In this document: piece by piece, positions 4,919-18,927 of the stretch | Layout: each line of letters begins with the position of its first letter | Numbering within the stretch: the stretch's first letter is position 1 | From: Deltaproteobacteria bacterium | GTDB lineage: Bacteria > Desulfobacterota > Desulfobacteria > Desulfobacterales > Desulfosalsimonadaceae | Direction: 5' to 3' | DNA: 38,256 nt | NCBI GenBank assembly: GCA_013151835.1 | Contig: JAADHK010000141.1 | Span: 1-38,256, forward strand | Made by a program: the position numbers and the translations under genes | The notes under the pieces: generated by a model | Database searches by the model: none | Told to the model about the DNA's origin: nothing | The model's input: the letters and a program-made list of their open reading frames with translations, nothing else

Positions 4919-5740
4919 CTATTTTCCCGTAAATTTCGCTTTTCGTTTTTCGGAAAACGCGGTTATGGCTTCCATGAGGTCATCCGATGGAATGATATTC
5001 GTGCTCATGGAGGCAACGTATTTAAGGCCGTCTTCAATGGATTTGCCCACCCCGAATTTAATCACGTCCTTTGATGCCTGCACCGCAAGGGGGGAGTTGT
5101 CCGCGATCTGCATGGCCATGGCCCCGGCCCCGGCCATGAGCGCTTCCTGATTGTCATATACTTCGTTTACCAGAAGGATTTCTTTTGCTCTTGAGGCATT
5201 AAATATTTTGGCCGTGTATGCCAGCTCACGGGCGATCCCCTGGCCCACGATGAGCGGCAGTCGCTGAAGCACCCCCACATCGGCCACAAACGCCACTGCG
5301 GCTTCCTTTAGGCAGAAGCGGGCGTCTGCCGAGCAGAGCCTGATGTCGCACGCGGTGGCAAGGTCGAGCCCCGCGCCGATGCAAAAACCGTGAATTGCCG
5401 CGATAACCGGTTTGCGGCACCATTCCACGCAGCTCATGGTGTCCTGGAGGGCATAAATTTTTTTGATGAGCTGCCGTTTTATCCCGCCCCGCTGCCCGGA
5501 GTCCATGAGTTCCGGAAGGTCGGCCGACATGGCTATCAGGTCAATGCCTGCGGAAAAGCACGGGCCTTTTCCGGAGATTATGACGGCGCGTATATCGTCA
5601 TCCGCATCCAGATCCTCAAAAATCGGGAGAGTCTCTTTCCATGCGGGCGGGTTCATGGCGTTTTTCTTCTCTGGCCGGTTCAGATACACCCATGCCAGCG
5701 GGGGTTTCTTTTCCACGAGATAGAACTGGTAGTCACTCAT
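4919..5740 (-). CDS. Crotonase-family protein, dienoyl-CoA isomerase-like
   Basis: A 273-residue enoyl-CoA hydratase/isomerase fold protein acting on acyl-CoA thioesters. The oxyanion-hole segment FSAGIDL (62-68) and the second segment HGFCIGAGLDLATACD (117-132) are clear. Acidic residues D126, E146 and D154 have the same spacing (20 and 8) as the catalytic D176, E196 and D204 of rat delta3,5-delta2,4-dienoyl-CoA isomerase, and the context KEAAVAFVADVGVLQRLP matches that subfamily. A role in degrading odd-position unsaturated fatty acids is therefore more likely than plain hydration. GGAGG lies 6 bases before the ATG. It is the first gene of the minus-strand operon, upstream of rimO; that pairing has no obvious functional logic. 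Confidence 0.85.
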   Translation of the reverse strand: MSDYQFYLVEKKPPLAWVYLNRPEKKNAMNPPAWKETLPIFEDLDADDDIRAVIISGKGPCFSAGIDLIAMSADLPELMDSGQRGGIKRQLIKKIYALQDTMSCVEWCRKPVIAAIHGFCIGAGLDLATACDIRLCSADARFCLKEAAVAFVADVGVLQRLPLIVGQGIARELAYTAKIFNASRAKEILLVNEVYDNQEALMAGAGAMAMQIADNSPLAVQASKDVIKFGVGKSIEDGLKYVASMSTNIIPSDDLMEAITAFSEKRKAKFTGK

Positions 5741-8127: not shown

Positions 8128-8136
8128 GTGGAACGG

Positions 8137-8742
8137 ATGATTGAAAATTTAAACACCCAAAACCTTGCCCCGTTTTTGGATGAGCTTGATGTTGTTTTTA
8201 ACGACATGGACAAAGAGTTTGAAGATGCGGCAAAATATTACGGGTTTTCCTGTGCGGGATGTGACGACAACTGCTGCAAGAGCCTGTTTTATCACTATAC
8301 GGCGGCGGAATATCTCTTTCTTGCCAGGGGGATGGACGGACTGTCCGATGGTGAAAGAACATCGGCATTCGAGCGTGCCGACGCCTATGCGTCCGCCATG
8401 GCCGGGGCGCCCAATGGAGGCAATTCGCCGCAACGGATCATCTGCCCTTTAAACGTTTTCGGCGGGTGTATACTCTACGGGTTTCGGCCGATGATTTGCA
8501 GGCTTTTCGGGCTTCCCCACGAGTTCACCCGGCCGGCCGGGGGCAGGGTGTCCGGACCGGGATGCGACCGGTTTTTAGAGGTATGCAAAGAAAAAGAGTA
8601 CCGCCGGTTTGACCGTACGCCATATTACGCGCGTCTGGCCGGGCTGGAAAAGTCTTTGCGGAATGCGACCGGAATAAACGGAAAGATCAAAATGACGGTG
8701 GCCGATATGCTGGTGTATATGGAAGCGGGAGTGAAAACGTGA
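8137..8742 (+). CDS. YkgJ-family cysteine-cluster protein
   Basis: A 201-residue protein with the YkgJ pattern of cysteines: C39, C42, C46 and C47 (SCAGCDDNCC), then C103, C111 and C121 in CPLNVFGGC and RPMICRLFG, and two more at C143 and C150. This family is thought to bind zinc or an iron-sulfur cluster; its function is unsettled. A GTG at 8128 directly after the dGTPase stop is possible, but the ATG at 8137 has AGGTGG 5 bases upstream and is preferred. The stop overlaps the GTG start of a second YkgJ-like gene, so the two are co-translated paralogues. Confidence 0.78.
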   Translation: MIENLNTQNLAPFLDELDVVFNDMDKEFEDAAKYYGFSCAGCDDNCCKSLFYHYTAAEYLFLARGMDGLSDGERTSAFERADAYASAMAGAPNGGNSPQRIICPLNVFGGCILYGFRPMICRLFGLPHEFTRPAGGRVSGPGCDRFLEVCKEKEYRRFDRTPYYARLAGLEKSLRNATGINGKIKMTVADMLVYMEAGVKT

Positions 8743-9536
8743 AATACATTAAAACCGATGCGCCAGGTAACGTGCGCGAAAACATGCTGAAGCCCGGCGA
8801 GCGGTTTTCTTTCAGGTGTCACCCCGGTATTTCGTGTTTTAACCTCTGCTGCCGCAATTTAAACCTTTATCTTTACCCCTATGATATCATCCGGTTAAAG
8901 CAGAACCTCGGCATAACGTCGGCCGAGTTTATAGATAAATACACGGATGTGGTTCTCCGGAGCGGCCATGCTTTCCCGGACGTCATGCTGAAAATGGCGC
9001 AAAACAATGAAAAGACCTGCTCGTTTTTAACAGGCGGGGGCTGCGCCGTCTATCCCGACCGGCCCCAGACATGCCGGACCTTTCCCCTTGAATACGGCCT
9101 TTTTTTCGATGCTGAAAAAAACAGGTCGGAGCAGGTCGTGTTTTTCCGGCCCCCTGACTTCTGCCAGGGCAGGCACGAGTCAGCCACGTGGACGACGGCT
9201 TCATGGGAGGCCGACCAGAACGCAGCTTACTACAATCGCATGACCGGGCAATGGGCCGAACTTCTCCGCCTTTTTTCAACAGGCGCGGCAAGTGGATTCG
9301 ACCCTGGAAGCGAACAGGGCCGCATGTCCTTTATGGCGGCATATAACATGGATGAATTCAGGGAATTTATTTTGAACAGCTCCTTTCTCAAACGCTATTT
9401 GGTTAAATCCTCTTTGCGCGTAAGGCTCGGCTCGGATGACGCAGCCCTTCTTACGCTGGCCATGGCCTGGATCAGGCTTTTTATATTCAATATCTCATCG
9501 GGTGAAATTTCGGCCCGCAAAAAAGGGGGGCTATGA
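8739..9536 (+). CDS. YkgJ-family cysteine-cluster protein (second paralogue)
   Basis: A 265-residue protein starting at GTG 8739, which overlaps the previous stop by 4 bases and has GGGAG 8 bases upstream. The cysteine cluster is C27, C33, C37, C38 (CHPGISCFNLCC) followed by LNLYLYPYDIIRLKQ, then C94, C102 and C112 in CAVYPDRPQTCRTFP. This is the classical YkgJ/FliB-like arrangement and presumably binds a metal. The C-terminal third (about 170-265) has no recognised motif. The first and second YkgJ proteins align only over the cysteine motifs, so they are not a recent duplication. Substrate or partner unknown. Confidence 0.8.
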   Translation: MKYIKTDAPGNVRENMLKPGERFSFRCHPGISCFNLCCRNLNLYLYPYDIIRLKQNLGITSAEFIDKYTDVVLRSGHAFPDVMLKMAQNNEKTCSFLTGGGCAVYPDRPQTCRTFPLEYGLFFDAEKNRSEQVVFFRPPDFCQGRHESATWTTASWEADQNAAYYNRMTGQWAELLRLFSTGAASGFDPGSEQGRMSFMAAYNMDEFREFILNSSFLKRYLVKSSLRVRLGSDDAALLTLAMAWIRLFIFNISSGEISARKKGGL

Positions 9537-9994: not shown

Positions 9995-10147
9995 GGTCAA
10001 CTGCGGCCTTCCGGCATATCTGATTTTTCATGTTGAAAATTACAGGATTTCAGATATCATAGATAGATGCCGGTTGGGCATTGTTGTTGCGTGACATGTT
10101 CTTATCATGATTTACCCCGTCATCCTCATCCATGTTCCGAGGGAACG

Positions 10148-13100
10148 ATGAAATACCAGAAGCTTCTCAATTTTCTCCAGAATGTCGGGAAGGACCCGTC
10201 CGTCCTTATCTTTGAAGACGAGCTTACCGGTTTAAACAACCGGCGCTTTCTCTTAAATTACCTGAAAACCGGCGTCAACTGGGAGAACACGGATAAGACC
10301 CCTTTTTCCATCGTGATGATGGATATCGATTATTTTAAGCGGATAAATGATCTTTACGGGCATGATATCGGTGATCAGGCCCTGGTTCACGTGGCGGAGA
10401 TTTTAAAGAAAATTTCCGCAGGCAATGGCATACCCATCCGTTTTGCCGGTGACGAGTTCCTGATATTGCTGCCCGGCAAGAACAAGGCCGAGGCGCTTTC
10501 AATCGGTGCGCGGCTCGTGCAGATTGTTCAAGAGAACCCCTTTTCACCGGGCGCAGGCACCACAGCCATAGAGATTACGGTGAGCGTGGGGGTTGCCACC
10601 GCGCCGGATGACGCCGTGAACGGGAAGATACTTATCACCCAGGCCGATACCGCCATGTATTCGGCCAAGCATTCCGGTAGAAATATCTATGCGGACGCCG
10701 GGGCCGTCAATCGGAACGTTGTGTTTCCCAGGATTGCCGTTCACTACCTGGAGGACGCCGGCATCACGGGTCGCAAGGCCCAGCTCGAGGCCATAAGCCG
10801 TTCGCTGCGTAAGGTTGGCGAAGGGGAGAGCAGGTTCGTAATCGTTGACGGGGCTTCAGGGATGGGCAAGACGAGCCTTTTAGATACGATCTGGCGAAAC
10901 CTGGAAAAGACCAGCCTTTCTCCTATCCGCATTGCCGGTGTGGTGCAGGAAGCCTGCAGGCCGTACTATCTCATGTCATATCTTGCCCTGGCCCTTATGA
11001 ACCAGTGCGAGGACAAGGGGCTTTCCGTTCTTTCGTCCATGGATGAAAAAGAGGTGGGCCACCTTGCCGGTATCCTGCCCCAGTTAAGTGGTTCGGATAT
11101 AATTCTAGGCAAAAGCGGTCCCGAAGACCGGAAGGCCCTTTTCGCCGTATTTGTAAAGTTTCTGGTAAAGCTGGTGGGAAGTCGCCCATTGGTTCTTCTC
11201 ATCGACGACCTTCATTTCGCCGATCCGGCCTCGCTTCACCTCTTGCGCTTTATTTTTCGGGAGCAGGCCATCCTCCTGTTTGTATGCGCTACCGCAGCCA
11301 TGGAGGATGCGTCCGGCGCCGGAACCCTTCCTTTGGAACTTTTCCGCACGGCGTACTCGCAGGAGATGGAAATTGAGACCGTACCGCTTACCCCCCTTTC
11401 AGCGCCGGATATTTCCTCGCACCTGGATGCCATTTTCCCGGGCATTTCGATCCCAAGGGGGCTTATGGACCAGATTATCCGCGTCACCGAAGGGAACCCG
11501 TTTTTCATGGTTCAGCTTATGCGCAAGATGGTGGAGGACGGTAATATTGTGGAGACCGGGAACAAATGGTCCATAAAGAGGGTCAGGCGGTCTTATTTCC
11601 CCGCTTCCATAGACGAAATTATATATCAGCGCGTGGCCAGTCTGGACGACGACAGCCGCCGGTTTTTAAACAGGGCATCCGCCTTTGGTGAGTCTACATC
11701 GCTTTCCATGCTGGTGGGAAGCGGAAGCGAGCAGCCCGGCGAGGCGCATGATTTCTTAAACCATGTTGTGGACAAGGGGATAGTAAGGAGCGATTTCGAA
11801 CAAAACGATGAAAACGTAAGATTTTCCAGTAAGCAGGTCCGTGATGTCGTTTACGACAATATCGGGCCAGAGGATAAAAAACGGCTTCACAATGTCATTG
11901 GAGAGTATCAGGAGAAACTTTATCAACAGGATGTTCTCCATTCCCCCGCGTACCTTGCCTATCATTTCAAACGTTCGCATAATAAGGGGAAAGCCGATAA
12001 CTATGAACAGCTCCAGGATGCCTGGAACAAGGACATATTCAACGAAAGGGAAATCTTCCATTATACGGGCGAAGATGCGGCGGACAAGGATGAGCTCGAA
12101 GAGGAAGAAGGCCTGGGAGATGAAATAGCAGACTCCCCGGTAAGCGAGGACTCAATGAAGCGGATTCCCGGCATGTTGAGGGCGCTGCTCATCGCTATCC
12201 GCAACACCATGCTGTATCCCGCGTCGAGCAAGTCTGTCCAGGATGCCATGTCCCAGTTCATGCGCCGGCTTGAACCCATTTTGGTGAGTGAGGATCGCTT
12301 TTCGATAATTGTGGAAAAAAAAGATATCCTGGTAAATGGGGCAAACGTGGATGTCGTCGAGATCCAGTCTATCTCCGAAAAGATAATAAGTTTGTGGCGG
12401 GGTCTGGAATTAAAGAGCCTGACATTTATCAAGGGCACCACTGAAAAGGAGGTGAAAGCCCTTTTAAACAGGATCAGCACGGTTGAGCGAAAAGCCATAG
12501 CTCCCGGTTTCTGGAAATGTTTTGCCGAGGAAAACAAGCTTGTTACATTGATTCCAAGGCAGGTCAGGTACAGGAAAATAAGGAGTGATGAGGAGAGTTC
12601 GGCATCCGCCCTTCCGGTTGACATTCCCCTGGACCGCACGGAAAATGCCGAAGACGCCACAATAGATAAAACAGAGCTTATCCGCATACAAAGGGTTATT
12701 ACCTCCCTGCTGGGCGCCGTCAGCAAATTAAAGCTATATCCTGCCACCGGCCCCGTGGCCAAAAAGGCCATCAGCCATGTGCTTACTGAATTAAGGGGGA
12801 TATTTGAAGCAAGGCCGGCGCTCTCCATTGCAAGGGTGGATGACGCCCTTTTGTTTGACGGAATAAAGGTCGATATGTCCGGGTTTGAAACCCTTGGAAA
12901 CGGACTTTTAAAATTTCTTGCGGCCGCCCATATTAACAGCTTGACCTTTGTGAAAAACCTTACGTTAGAGGAACTGGTCGATTTTTTGTCGGCTTTTTCC
13001 AACCGTCCGGACGGTGAGATGGCACCCACATTCTGGCGGGATACGGCAAGGGAAAAACAGATTAAGAATATACTTTTTGATTATGGGGTTTACGGCGATA

Positions 13101-14461
13101 TAGGGGCCGTGCCCGGTGCATCGGGACCTGTCGGCGCCAAGCCTGTTTCCGGCGATCATGAGAAAACGGATAATTCGGATCGGGCTGAAAAGGTTGATGA
13201 ACAACAGGCGACTGCCGGCCCATCGCCTGCCGGTCCGGGGCCGGAGCTGGCCATGGAGGGTCAGCCGCTGGAGATGGCCGCTTCTGGGCCGGAGGACAGC
13301 CAGGAAGCCGGATCACTGGAAAAGCGGGTCCGGGACCTTTTTTTGCAGGAAGATAAAAAAGGGGCGCAGGCCCTGGTGGAAGGATTGTTAAACGATTATA
13401 AGAGGGCGGATGCGCGGGAAAAGGCCGGGGTTCTTGAGCATTTTTCAGGACTGCTCAACCCTGAGGAATGGAAACCCGGCGCCGAGTATTTGCGGCTCGT
13501 TACCGATCCTCTTGTACGACTTTTAGAGGCTGAACCAGATGATGTGCTTGCGAAGCGGGCTGCGGCCATGCTGACCGAGGTTGCGGAAAAGTTCATACTT
13601 TTTTCGGATTACCGTTCCGCCACCCGGATTCTGGCAGGTGTAAAAGCAAAAGCGGGGCACGATCAGGTTTTCGAATCCGGGGAGCTTTCTCAAAAGGCGG
13701 CCGAGGCCGTGATGGAAGATTTCAGGGCCGGGGATACGGAAAAACAGCAGGCCGCATACCAGCTTGCAAGCAGCCTGGGGCCTGCAGCCCTTCCCATGCT
13801 CGGGGACATGATCCGCCGTGTGGACAGGCTCCGGGTAAGGCAGCTTGCCGCTGAACTGATCGCAGCCCTGGGGGCAGATGGCGAAAAATTTATCAAATTC
13901 ACGCTCATGGGGGAGAGCAGGCCCGACTACCGGGCACGGATCCTGGATGTTGTCGATGCCGTTACCACCGACCTGCTGACGGAATTGACCTTTTCGTTTT
14001 CCGATACCTCCGATATCGTCTGCCGTTCGGCATACAGGCTTGCCGAACGGATTGCTACCCCGGAAATCGTTGGAATCCTCATGGAGTTTGCAAAGGGCGA
14101 GGATGAAAAAACAGCGGTTTTCGCCATCAGTTCCCTTGGCAAAATCGGGGACAGGTCGGCAATCGACACCCTTATTCATGTGCTTGAGGAATCATTATCT
14201 GCCGATGTCCAGATGGCAGCCTGCCGTGCCATGGACCGGATGTCCGATCCCGCGTTTCTTGCCCCCCTTGTCAGGCTTCTCCTTCCCAAACGCAAAAAAC
14301 TCTTTGGTAAAAAATATGAGCCCCCGGTCCGCGTGGCCGCCGCCTACGCCATTTCAAAAATCCCCGACAGCCGGGCCGACACCATCCTACAGGGCCTTGC
14401 CAACGATTCCGACCCCCGTGTCCGCGAATCCGCACGCCAGATACTTGCCGCTCGGGGATAA
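10148..14461 (+). CDS. GGDEF - STAND ATPase - repeated domain - HEAT fusion protein
   Basis: A 1437-residue soluble multidomain protein. Domains in order: GGDEF diguanylate-cyclase-type domain (about 15-190; DELTGLNNRR start, catalytic loop RFAGDEF at about 98-104, no RxxD inhibitory site seen); AAA/STAND ATPase (about 205-500; Walker A GASGMGKTS near 235, Walker B LVLLIDDLHFADP near 350); acidic linker (640-660); two copies of an unnamed domain of about 110 residues (about 668-775 and 843-955) sharing LYPA, a late SLTFI/VK segment and a following short helix; a Pro/Gly-rich linker (about 985-1035); HEAT-like repeats (about 1200-1437). The ATG at 10148 follows GAGGG; an upstream in-frame ATG at 10067 is in non-coding-looking sequence. 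The AGDEF form can be active in other cyclases, so c-di-GMP synthesis is possible but unproven. It lies upstream of lptF. Confidence 0.85.
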   Translation: MKYQKLLNFLQNVGKDPSVLIFEDELTGLNNRRFLLNYLKTGVNWENTDKTPFSIVMMDIDYFKRINDLYGHDIGDQALVHVAEILKKISAGNGIPIRFAGDEFLILLPGKNKAEALSIGARLVQIVQENPFSPGAGTTAIEITVSVGVATAPDDAVNGKILITQADTAMYSAKHSGRNIYADAGAVNRNVVFPRIAVHYLEDAGITGRKAQLEAISRSLRKVGEGESRFVIVDGASGMGKTSLLDTIWRNLEKTSLSPIRIAGVVQEACRPYYLMSYLALALMNQCEDKGLSVLSSMDEKEVGHLAGILPQLSGSDIILGKSGPEDRKALFAVFVKFLVKLVGSRPLVLLIDDLHFADPASLHLLRFIFREQAILLFVCATAAMEDASGAGTLPLELFRTAYSQEMEIETVPLTPLSAPDISSHLDAIFPGISIPRGLMDQIIRVTEGNPFFMVQLMRKMVEDGNIVETGNKWSIKRVRRSYFPASIDEIIYQRVASLDDDSRRFLNRASAFGESTSLSMLVGSGSEQPGEAHDFLNHVVDKGIVRSDFEQNDENVRFSSKQVRDVVYDNIGPEDKKRLHNVIGEYQEKLYQQDVLHSPAYLAYHFKRSHNKGKADNYEQLQDAWNKDIFNEREIFHYTGEDAADKDELEEEEGLGDEIADSPVSEDSMKRIPGMLRALLIAIRNTMLYPASSKSVQDAMSQFMRRLEPILVSEDRFSIIVEKKDILVNGANVDVVEIQSISEKIISLWRGLELKSLTFIKGTTEKEVKALLNRISTVERKAIAPGFWKCFAEENKLVTLIPRQVRYRKIRSDEESSASALPVDIPLDRTENAEDATIDKTELIRIQRVITSLLGAVSKLKLYPATGPVAKKAISHVLTELRGIFEARPALSIARVDDALLFDGIKVDMSGFETLGNGLLKFLAAAHINSLTFVKNLTLEELVDFLSAFSNRPDGEMAPTFWRDTAREKQIKNILFDYGVYGDIGAVPGASGPVGAKPVSGDHEKTDNSDRAEKVDEQQATAGPSPAGPGPELAMEGQPLEMAASGPEDSQEAGSLEKRVRDLFLQEDKKGAQALVEGLLNDYKRADAREKAGVLEHFSGLLNPEEWKPGAEYLRLVTDPLVRLLEAEPDDVLAKRAAAMLTEVAEKFILFSDYRSATRILAGVKAKAGHDQVFESGELSQKAAEAVMEDFRAGDTEKQQAAYQLASSLGPAALPMLGDMIRRVDRLRVRQLAAELIAALGADGEKFIKFTLMGESRPDYRARILDVVDAVTTDLLTELTFSFSDTSDIVCRSAYRLAERIATPEIVGILMEFAKGEDEKTAVFAISSLGKIGDRSAIDTLIHVLEESLSADVQMAACRAMDRMSDPAFLAPLVRLLLPKRKKLFGKKYEPPVRVAAAYAISKIPDSRADTILQGLANDSDPRVRESARQILAARG

Positions 14462-17084: not shown

Positions 17085-18263
17085 ATGGGTCTTTTTTATC
17101 AAAATATTGAAAAGATCATGAACGGCCCGTCCGGGCCTGACAGGGGCATGACTGAAAGGGCGCTGTCCCTGATGTCATATATTTACGGGGGACTGATCCG
17201 GCTCAGAAACAACCTCTATGACAGGCGCATGCTCCCGGTAAACAGGCTGTCATGTCCCGTGATCTCGGTGGGCAATATCAGCGCGGGCGGTACCGGCAAG
17301 ACGCCAATGACTGTTTATATTGCGCGAATGTTGCGTAACCGGGGTCTGCGGCCGGTCATCGTGAGCCGTGGCTACGGGGGGGAAGGCGTGAAGCACGGGG
17401 CCGTTGTCAGCGACGGGAACAGGCTGTTATGCGGCCCGGATATCTCGGGGGACGAGCCGTATCTCATGGCGTCCGCTCTTTTTGGAGTTCCGGTGCTGGT
17501 CGGCGCGGACAGGTTCAGGAGCGGGTCTGTTGCAATAACCAGGTTTTCGCCATCCGTGATTATTTTAGATGACGGGTTTCAGCACCGGCGCCTTTTTCGG
17601 GATGTGGATCTCGTCCTGGCGGACGACCGTAAATTTCTCGGAAACATGCGCCTGATTCCCAGGGGTATGCTCAGGGAGCCGGTCTCTTCTTTATCGCGTG
17701 CGGATGCGCTTATCCTTACCCGGACCGGGGATACGCCGGTCTCCATTGTGCGAGCAAAAGCATGTGCGCCCGGGAAATCGGTTTTTGTTTCAACACATGT
17801 CCCGGTATGTTACGGAATATTTAAGGGTAGCGCCCCGCTTTTTGCCGGGATTGAGGAGCGAAACAAGGCACAGCGCCTTGATGTTTTGCGGACAGCCCGG
17901 GTATTCGGATTTTCAGGGATCGCTCAAAATGATGAGTTTTTGCGAACCATCAAGGATGTGTCGGGAAGCCTGGCCGGGTTTGTTACCTTTTCCGACCATC
18001 ATCCATACACGGACGGCGAGCTTTTGCGGATATCGCAAACAGCCCGGGAAAAATCGGCCGATTATATTGTCACGACCCGCAAGGATTACGTGCGGGCCGC
18101 AGGCCGTATCCCAGGGGAAATTCCAGTGGCTGTGATCGACGTGGAAATTTCGTTTCCAGGGGAGTCGGCCATGCGGTTTGCGGAGTTTGTGGCCGAAAAA
18201 ATTTCAGAAGCGTCCTTAATGTTGCCGGGGACGCATTTATCGGAGGCTGGTGACGATGCATAA
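17085..18263 (+). CDS. lpxK: Tetraacyldisaccharide 4'-kinase LpxK
   Basis: A 392-residue lipid A biosynthesis kinase that phosphorylates the 4' position of the tetraacyl disaccharide at the inner-membrane face. The P-loop SVGNISAGGTGKTP is at 61-74, followed by SRGYGG and by LDDGFQHRR (about 165-174), both LpxK hallmarks. An N-terminal hydrophobic/amphipathic helix (about 25-45) anchors it to the membrane. It is somewhat longer than E. coli LpxK (328), with an extended N-terminus and a C-terminal tail. It starts 7 bases after lptG, grouping LPS synthesis and export in one transcript. The last 8 bases overlap the kinase-like gene that follows. Confidence 0.94.
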   Translation: MGLFYQNIEKIMNGPSGPDRGMTERALSLMSYIYGGLIRLRNNLYDRRMLPVNRLSCPVISVGNISAGGTGKTPMTVYIARMLRNRGLRPVIVSRGYGGEGVKHGAVVSDGNRLLCGPDISGDEPYLMASALFGVPVLVGADRFRSGSVAITRFSPSVIILDDGFQHRRLFRDVDLVLADDRKFLGNMRLIPRGMLREPVSSLSRADALILTRTGDTPVSIVRAKACAPGKSVFVSTHVPVCYGIFKGSAPLFAGIEERNKAQRLDVLRTARVFGFSGIAQNDEFLRTIKDVSGSLAGFVTFSDHHPYTDGELLRISQTAREKSADYIVTTRKDYVRAAGRIPGEIPVAVIDVEISFPGESAMRFAEFVAEKISEASLMLPGTHLSEAGDDA

Positions 18264-18927
18264 AAACAGGCCCTTTACACGGGCCGGGATTGTCCGTGGT
18301 CAGACAAAATTTCTGGCCCGGGGAAGATGGGCAAATGCCGACCTCATGTTGTGCCGTGTGGCCGGAAGCCACTGGGTGGTCAAGGATTTTTCCGCCTGCC
18401 CGGACCCGATAAAAAACACCTGGGGCGTATGGATGGTCCGGCGGGAGTTTAATGCTTTTTTGCGACTGGCCGGACTGGACGGGATACCGGCACAACCCTT
18501 TCTGGTTGACCGGTACGCAGTGGCCTACAGGTTCATGCCCGGAAAGACCCTTCGGGATATTTCACCTGATGTCCTGACGCGCGAATTTTTCCTTTCCTTC
18601 GAATCCCTGGTGCTTGAAATGCATGCAAGGGGGCTGGTTCATCTTGACCTGCGCAACCGACGCAATATTCTGTTTATGGACAACGGAAGGCCGGGTATCC
18701 TCGATTTCCAGTCGTATATTAATCTTTGTTTCGTCCCCGGCTTTCTCCACAGGCTTTTAAAGGAAATCGATCTTTCCGGCGTGTACAAGATCTGGAATAA
18801 CAGCCGGCCGGACCTTATGGACAAAGCCCGCATGGACCGGCTTTTCGCCATGAACCGAAAACGGGGGCTCTGGGTCTTGAAGGGGTATCCCATGGGGACT
18901 AAGGGGAGACGCAGGGGTGAAGAATGA
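18256..18927 (+). CDS. Small LPS-kinase-like (WaaP/RIO-type) protein
   Basis: A 223-residue protein with a complete kinase residue set: K43 (VVKDF), E64 (RREFNAF), catalytic D131 and N137 in HLDLRNRRN, and metal-binding D150 in ILDFQS. No glycine-rich loop is obvious before K43. The overall pattern is that of WaaP/KdkA/InaA-type lipopolysaccharide kinases or RIO-like kinases. Position directly after lpxK, with overlapping reading frames, makes phosphorylation of lipid A core or Kdo the best guess. ATG 18256 is preferred over GTG 18250 because GGAGG (18242-18246) sits 9 rather than 3 bases away. The substrate is inferred from neighbourhood only. Confidence 0.7.
   Translation: MHKNRPFTRAGIVRGQTKFLARGRWANADLMLCRVAGSHWVVKDFSACPDPIKNTWGVWMVRREFNAFLRLAGLDGIPAQPFLVDRYAVAYRFMPGKTLRDISPDVLTREFFLSFESLVLEMHARGLVHLDLRNRRNILFMDNGRPGILDFQSYINLCFVPGFLHRLLKEIDLSGVYKIWNNSRPDLMDKARMDRLFAMNRKRGLWVLKGYPMGTKGRRRGEE

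Follow-up and report, generated by a model that had tools for sequence, protein, structure and literature searches.

A GGDEF, STAND ATPase, LYP and HEAT protein of Desulfosalsimonadaceae as a candidate ATP-driven diguanylate cyclase

Could the gating of a second-messenger enzyme be contained in a single protein? Here, we examine a gene on a stretch of 38,256 nucleotides (contig JAADHK010000141.1 of assembly GCA_013151835.1, termed the window below) from a Deltaproteobacteria bacterium of the Desulfosalsimonadaceae, a host of the sulfate-reducer type. Its product joins, in this order, a GGDEF domain, a STAND ATPase module, two copies of a domain that is called LYP here and a HEAT-repeat region (Table 1). 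The best explanation, to which we give a probability of about one half, is an ATP-driven, protein-gated diguanylate cyclase, making cyclic di-GMP (c-di-GMP), whose LYP-HEAT half docks partner proteins.

Domains of the protein

Translation of positions 10148-14461 (+) gives 1437 residues and then a stop codon. The original prediction, in which domains were read by eye, had placed a protein of this length here and had divided it into a c-di-GMP-type domain with an AGDEF loop and no RxxD inhibitory site, a STAND-type NTPase with intact Walker A (GASGMGKTS) and Walker B (LLIDD), two copies of a domain that it could not name and a HEAT scaffold. These assignments all stand, by translation, by alignment to relatives and by the domain searches given below, and the STAND membership is now supported by the predicted fold as well. 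In a hidden Markov model search of the whole protein, which was run on a 1464-residue reading beginning at ATG 10067, GGDEF (E = 1.6e-42), AAA_16 (2.9e-21) and HEAT_2 (9.9e-17) were all above the Pfam cut-offs. Single residues were compared in an alignment of 40 rows, window included, of which 39 are distinct after locus L111, the same gene as L141, is dropped. A model of residues 1-1000, built with sequences of the window and of related loci, has a mean predicted local distance difference test score (pLDDT) of 80.2 and a predicted template modelling score (pTM) of 0.56.

The GGDEF domain scores 145.5 bits against a cut-off of 23.8, and residues 17-184 of the model match PleD chain 9g86_B with Z = 25.4 and a root-mean-square deviation (rmsd) of 1.6 over 165 residues. 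The window protein keeps D59, N67, D76, D102, E103 and F104. We take D59 to be the metal-binding Asp and assign the roles of the catalytic D and of the D/E-E motif by analogy with PleD, while N67 and D76 are taken as guanine contacts, by equivalence with PleD. Since D76 is kept in 36 of the 39 distinct rows, ordinary GTP specificity is favoured over the 3'3'-cGAMP specificity of the Hypr type. The first Gly of the GG[DE]EF motif is replaced by A100; because A occupies this position in 32/39 distinct rows and in both single-LYP members examined (L237, L238), it looks old rather than decayed. RxxD was found five residues ahead of the motif in none of the 40 rows, window included. According to passages of PMC3974145, c-di-GMP is synthesized in vitro by VCA0965, an AGDEF protein of Vibrio cholerae whose influence on motility and biofilm requires an intact motif, as tested with AGDAF, and AG[DE]EF accounts for 1.56% of GGDEF proteins. 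The relative L123 carries AGDAF. Given that D59, D102 and E103 are all kept and that VCA0965 is active with AGDEF, the window protein is probably a working diguanylate cyclase.

STAND ATPases are marked by a Walker A motif, a Walker B motif with DD and a GxP motif in the part that follows, and the window protein has all three (Table 1). In the predicted model, residues 202-631 have the nucleotide-binding, helical and winged-helix folds of such a module. Structural matches were obtained with 6mfv, a TPR-bearing STAND protein (Z = 22.9, rmsd 4.5 over 330 residues), 8bob_C (Z = 22.8, rmsd 4.7 over 358 residues) and Apaf-1 3sfz (Z = 22.2, rmsd 4.1 over 354 residues), and Foldseek gave E-values of 2.1e-8 for Apaf-1 and 7.1e-8 for 6mfv. 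We take 8bob chain C, from a maltose-system entry, to be MalT. The curated STAND-type models of Pfam (NB-ARC, NACHT, nSTAND) matched weakly, below cut-off; over the whole protein, the ATPase model that exceeds its cut-off is AAA_16.

For residues 652-1068, Pfam gives no match up to E = 1. The name LYP, coined in the present analysis, refers to an L-Y-P motif, which, like a W, is invariant in 14 rows (two copies from each of seven proteins), while one N, one S and one Y come close to invariance. The two copies of the window protein are 25% identical to each other, and a profile of the 14 rows finds both of them, both being already rows of that profile; judged by their sequences, they are diverged homologues of one domain. 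In a model of both copies (mean pLDDT 85.7), each consists of two long helices followed by elements in the order b-b-a-b-a-a-b-b. No clear match to a known fold was found for this model, the best Foldseek E-value being 0.16 (probability 0.07) in a list of 50 rows with many phytochrome or GAF entries, none significant. In a fold comparison with VIA, the best result was Z = 7.3 over 50 residues of helix, and the LYP profile gave one match among solved chains, with E = 0.53. The C-terminal HEAT region scores 74.0 bits with HEAT_2 against a cut-off of 27.7 (residues 1069-1437). No known ligand-binding domain was found in the protein.

LYP domains and c-di-GMP proteins

The LYP domain is also found outside this architecture. 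A wider profile of 27 rows detected LYP in 115 genomes out of a phylum-wide sample of 297 (E <= 1e-5), which gives a handle on many unannotated proteins. Fifty-one LYP proteins, picked among the top hits and not at random, were scanned with Pfam at E <= 0.001, so that the class counts are not frequencies: 7 have GGDEF-AAA_16-HEAT, 11 have HD_5 (the HD-GYP-type model), 9 have HEAT-cNMP-PilZ, 1 has HEAT-cNMP, 22 have HEAT only and 1 has no match. Three of the domain calls are just under the curated cut-offs, namely PilZ in L092, HEAT in L230 and AAA_16 in L237. At L226 and L242 the picking of open reading frames (ORFs) gave no LYP frame, and both were left out. Altogether, a GGDEF, HD_5 or PilZ domain is present in 27 of the 51 chosen proteins.

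In ten loci (L100, L225, L227-L232, L241 and L243) a LYP-HEAT gene adjoins a LYP-HD gene, with ends that mostly touch or overlap as called here; Pfam HEAT (in L230 just below cut-off) and HD_5 are found in all ten pairs. Among the LYP-HD proteins searched for motifs, 10/11 have GYP and 8/11 have HD[IV]GK, so that some of these proteins may be degenerate. The window's own genome carries a 747-residue LYP-HEAT gene 11 bp before a 336-residue cNMP-PilZ gene (L256:1934-5199, contig C17), which are the two halves of a protein fused elsewhere. Searches of this genome gave, above cut-off, 12 matches for GGDEF (with this gene among them), 10 for PilZ and 8 for HD_5, of which two HD_5 matches look like one gene, and on these matches a c-di-GMP network is present in it. 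It also has a second cNMP-PilZ gene, of 342 residues (L257:2681-3709, contig C143), and the LYP search of the genome gave no LYP gene on that contig.

Because LYP also occurs on HD-GYP and cNMP-PilZ proteins, its recurrence favours a role in docking proteins over the binding of a ligand private to this protein. Since two proteins with the window's architecture have a single LYP (L237 and L238, 1180 and 1191 residues), the second copy may be a later addition. On a broader and more doubtful reading, LYP would be a docking domain that assembles c-di-GMP complexes in Thermodesulfobacteriota, where a synthase (GGDEF-STAND-LYP-LYP-HEAT), a hydrolase (LYP-HD-GYP), a receptor (LYP-HEAT-cNMP-PilZ) and a scaffold (LYP-HEAT) would meet through LYP; the STAND module would make the assembly of the synthase ATP-driven, and lineages with a dead GGDEF domain would have a pure assembly switch. 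If so, this would be an apoptosome-like machine whose output is a second messenger.

Proposed mechanism and alternatives

As established for Apaf-1 and MalT, STAND proteins are closed at rest and come together upon activation with ATP, and GGDEF domains work as dimers; because of these two properties, assembly of the protein would switch synthesis on. In the resting state, the LYP-LYP-HEAT half would act as an autoinhibitor that keeps the ATPase shut and separates the GGDEF domains at the N-terminus. Docking of a partner on the LYP/HEAT half would open the switch, the ATP-bound modules would assemble, and the GGDEF domains thus brought together could make c-di-GMP in pairs. Since only 22 residues precede the GGDEF domain, the signal would have to enter from the ATPase, LYP or HEAT side, and the company that LYP keeps makes docking of a protein within the c-di-GMP network our first guess for the trigger. 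As the RxxD site, the usual product brake, is absent, shut-off would rest on ATP hydrolysis and the partner.

Several findings weigh against this reading. D59, D102 or E103 is replaced in 13 of the 39 distinct rows, E103 by N (5; L124 and L139 are such AGDNF proteins), S (2), K, I or A, D59 by N (3) or G (3), and D102 by G (2) or Y. In addition, L136 and L141 pass the test of these three residues, which is coarse and misses other active-site changes, despite L and D for F63 and K64 and T for D76. The mean pairwise identity of the GGDEF domain is 0.520, versus 0.524 and 0.536 for the ATPase (19 rows). The model of residues 1-1000, with its pTM of 0.56, is a monomer, and no gene that would point to a partner lies nearby both in the window and in most relatives. 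Because catalytic residues are lost in a third of the distinct rows, synthesis is not the function for which the entire family is retained. All 40 rows have Walker A, the DD of Walker B and G.P.F, and the part kept by every member, judged from the alignment, is the ATPase and not catalysis, that is, the switch. The original prediction of a ligand- or protein-gated second-messenger enzyme therefore stands in part: a switch feeding a second-messenger domain is the natural reading, but "enzyme" cannot be assumed family-wide.

The same losses favour a nucleotide-reading switch, in which the GGDEF domain would bind GTP or c-di-GMP without much product and set the STAND-LYP-HEAT scaffold, the real output. 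In a tree of residues 195-1000, from which the GGDEF domain was left out (a quick 39-row tree with support from the SH-like approximate likelihood ratio test only), it takes five changes of state to explain the catalytic labels, four of which are made unavoidable by starred branches, and the changes are most simply separate losses; the replacements of E103 are diverse. N67 and D76 are both kept in 12 of the 13 loss rows, so nucleotide binding may survive, and the genes with lost residues remain full length, with frames of about 1400-1480 residues. However, D59, D102 and E103 are all present in the window and 25 other distinct rows; the 13 loss rows all lie inside the 27-row clade that holds the window, and the 12 rows outside it all pass the three-residue test. 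Nor is product binding at the usual I-site expected where RxxD is absent. We regard this as a possible but tentative account of the protein, while for members without the catalytic residues a nucleotide-reading scaffold is likely. Since catalysis was lost repeatedly while the ATPase stayed, the family offers a natural experiment on the role of a GGDEF domain once synthesis stops. As a separate observation, the Desulfatibacillum homologues L141 (GADEF) and L136 (GGDEF) share a differently altered active site that was scored intact.

It is unlikely that the protein is an ordinary cyclase with decorative fusions, merely tethered in the cell by its ATPase, LYP and HEAT portions. Both HEAT repeats and LYP domains do recur as modules, and the three linkers measured are poorly conserved (mean pairwise identity 0.17-0.32), but Walker A, Walker B and GxP occur in every row while GGDEF catalysis varies, and switching thus seems to outweigh tethering.

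Distribution and gene neighbourhood

The gene was found in 33 of 36 genomes of the window's family, its own included and contig-cut genes counted, and in 0/24 genomes of other families in the same search (E <= 1e-40), in which at most nine candidates were scored per genome, so that the counts are lower bounds. In a wider sample of the order, the LYP profile found ORFs of about 1400 residues with two LYP copies in further families. Alignment gave the same domain order in proteins of five families (f8, f57, f66, f67 and f71), that of f8 ending at a contig edge before HEAT. A profile of residues 1-1000 matched at least 10 of the 297 phylum genomes (own included, one match being a 140-residue fragment), a lower bound since two candidates were scored per genome, and added families f83, f92, f106 and f132; the proteins scanned from f83 (L244) and f132 (L239) have Pfam GGDEF, AAA_16 and HEAT. 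The same order thus occurs in the window's family and in further families of the phylum. In two of the genomes examined, the gene is present twice in tandem (L108, L239).

Named records were searched with patterns from the window's own family, and the best 80 matches were listed. Among the matches listed, 26/79 loci have a frame with a match to the full-length profile together with one or more LYP copies, some of these frames being contig-cut. By record title, they belong to Desulfobacterales-type metagenome-assembled genomes (MAGs), the isolate Desulfatibacillum alkenivorans DSM 16219 (L141), a "Deltaproteobacteria" MAG (L117) and a "Gemmatimonadetes" MAG (L138). The contig-cut GGDEF-ATPase-LYP protein of L138, in a MAG so labelled, would reflect transfer or mis-binning. 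In L140, GGDEF and ATPase are visible up to the contig end. The other 52 loci listed (L143-L194) match in the ATPase only, and the family-made profile found no GGDEF in the same frame.

When the 19 proteins of the window were compared with the loci of 18 relatives, several of which have a short flank on one side, a single match was obtained apart from the GGDEF gene (33%, to the protein at 4919-5740, in L036). An operon logic finds no support in this comparison of neighbours. In 8/18 loci (L035, L038-L041, L047, L048 and L050), all of genera g5 and g9, the GGDEF gene has a convergent cpYpsA/SLOG-type gene of about 276 residues beside it or close by (Pfam call in the two scanned); this gene is absent beside the window gene. 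Genes that converge are not transcribed together, and the arrangement therefore looks more like local synteny than like a link between the two.

Could the protein then serve in defence or cell death, as a STAND protein with a cyclic-dinucleotide effector? Passages of PMC7159879 report that GGDEF rarely replaces the cyclic nucleotide (cNMP) cyclase in vWA-MoxR conflict systems, where STAND NTPases occur as well; the passages on GGDEF and STAND NTPases do not show both in one protein. On the other side, the gene is present in 33/36 family genomes amid changing neighbourhoods, the tree rows group by family code (f57, f67, f71), and PADLOC-DB gave only HEAT-ARM_XIII, with 17.7 bits and E = 1.1e-4 over 66 residues, and no hit spanning most of a system protein. 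A defence island finds no support in the PADLOC result and the changing neighbourhoods, and we consider a role in defence or cell death very improbable.

Comparison with known systems

All parts of the protein except LYP are already known. PleD/WspR-type cyclases have the same GGDEF fold and catalytic residues, whereas the window protein replaces the first G with A, lacks RxxD as well as any receiver or sensor at the N-terminus, and carries a STAND ATPase after the GGDEF domain. VCA0965 shares the AGDEF motif and is active, but has a membrane N-terminus and an RxxD site; the passages of PMC3974145 mention no ATPase for it. The STAND proteins 6mfv, Apaf-1 (3sfz) and 8bob_C share the module over 330-358 residues (Z = 22-23, rmsd 4.1-4.7) together with Walker A, Walker B and GxP, and differ in outputs and sensors: the output of MalT is DNA binding, and Apaf-1 has CARD and WD40, whereas the window protein has GGDEF as output and LYP-LYP-HEAT as its C-terminal half. 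The TOMM kinase/cyclase fusion TIGR03903 likewise couples a signalling domain to an NTPase of this kind. Its model is matched by residues 205-619 at 2.1e-29, with 102 bits against a cut-off of 705.75, short of a whole-protein match; that fusion has a kinase and a class III cyclase, whereas the window protein has GGDEF, LYP and HEAT. Soluble adenylyl cyclase ADCY10 also has its signalling domain joined to such an NTPase.

The LYP-HEAT/LYP-HD-GYP pairs and the LYP-HEAT-cNMP-PilZ proteins have the same LYP domain, usually with HEAT, in the turnover or reading of c-di-GMP, but they have no GGDEF or AAA_16 match and a single LYP copy near the N-terminus. In open-licence full-text literature, we found no description of the GGDEF-STAND-LYP-LYP-HEAT architecture or of the LYP domain. 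To our knowledge, fusions of a cyclase with an NTPase of this type mainly concern cyclic AMP; the window protein is a full-length, lineage-conserved case for c-di-GMP, with its proposed gating logic contained in one protein.

Gene structure and other features of the window

The + frame shows 35-47% identity to 18 relatives over the alignment, which is not expected of a non-coding frame, and is therefore taken as coding; long antisense ORFs are present within the gene. The alternative in-frame ATG at 10067, which would add 27 residues, was set aside, and the start at ATG 10148 was kept because the 18 aligned relatives were compared from an MK.QK start and AGGGA precedes it. The first 22 residues are the most conserved of 11 segments compared, with a mean pairwise identity of 0.73 (19 rows). 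The upstream reading frame ends 153 bp before the gene, and the next frame, lptF, begins 325 bp after it. It should be noted that 8 matches to the promoter consensus were found in the region, versus 4.1 expected by chance.

Table 1. Features of the gene in the window.
Feature	Residues	Positions	Strand	Basis
Sigma-70-like promoter match upstream of the gene, 10/12		10033..10060	+	consensus match only
AGGGA, possible ribosome-binding site		10140..10144	+	read from sequence
Whole gene, GGDEF - STAND ATPase - LYP - LYP - HEAT	1-1437	10148..14461	+	translation, Pfam, alignment
N-terminal stretch with helix	1-22	10148..10213	+	alignment, predicted model
GGDEF domain	23-180	10214..10687	+	Pfam; predicted fold vs PleD
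D59 of MDID motif, putative metal-binding Asp	59	10322..10324	+	alignment; N or G in 6/39 distinct rows
AGDEF motif	100-104	10445..10459	+	alignment
STAND ATPase module	202-631	10751..12040	+	predicted fold
Walker A, GASGMGKTS	235-243	10850..10876	+	GxxGxGK[ST] in 40/40 rows
Walker B, LLIDD	350-354	11195..11209	+	DD in 40/40 rows
GxP-type motif, GNPFF	449-453	11492..11506	+	G.P.F in 40/40 rows
LYP domain, copy 1	669-815	12152..12592	+	alignment, predicted model
LYP domain, copy 2	846-990	12683..13117	+	alignment, predicted model
Poorly conserved linker, mean pairwise identity 0.19	991-1060	13118..13327	+	alignment
HEAT-repeat region, Pfam repeats inside	1061-1437	13328..14458	+	Pfam

Elsewhere in the window, a 225-residue protein after lpxK (18250-18927) has kinase-type matches that are weak and below cut-off. 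Between a dGTPase gene and a gene of 153 residues without Pfam match, two adjoining cysteine-motif proteins are encoded at 8128-9536, the second of which is above the Pfam CxxCxxCC cut-off.

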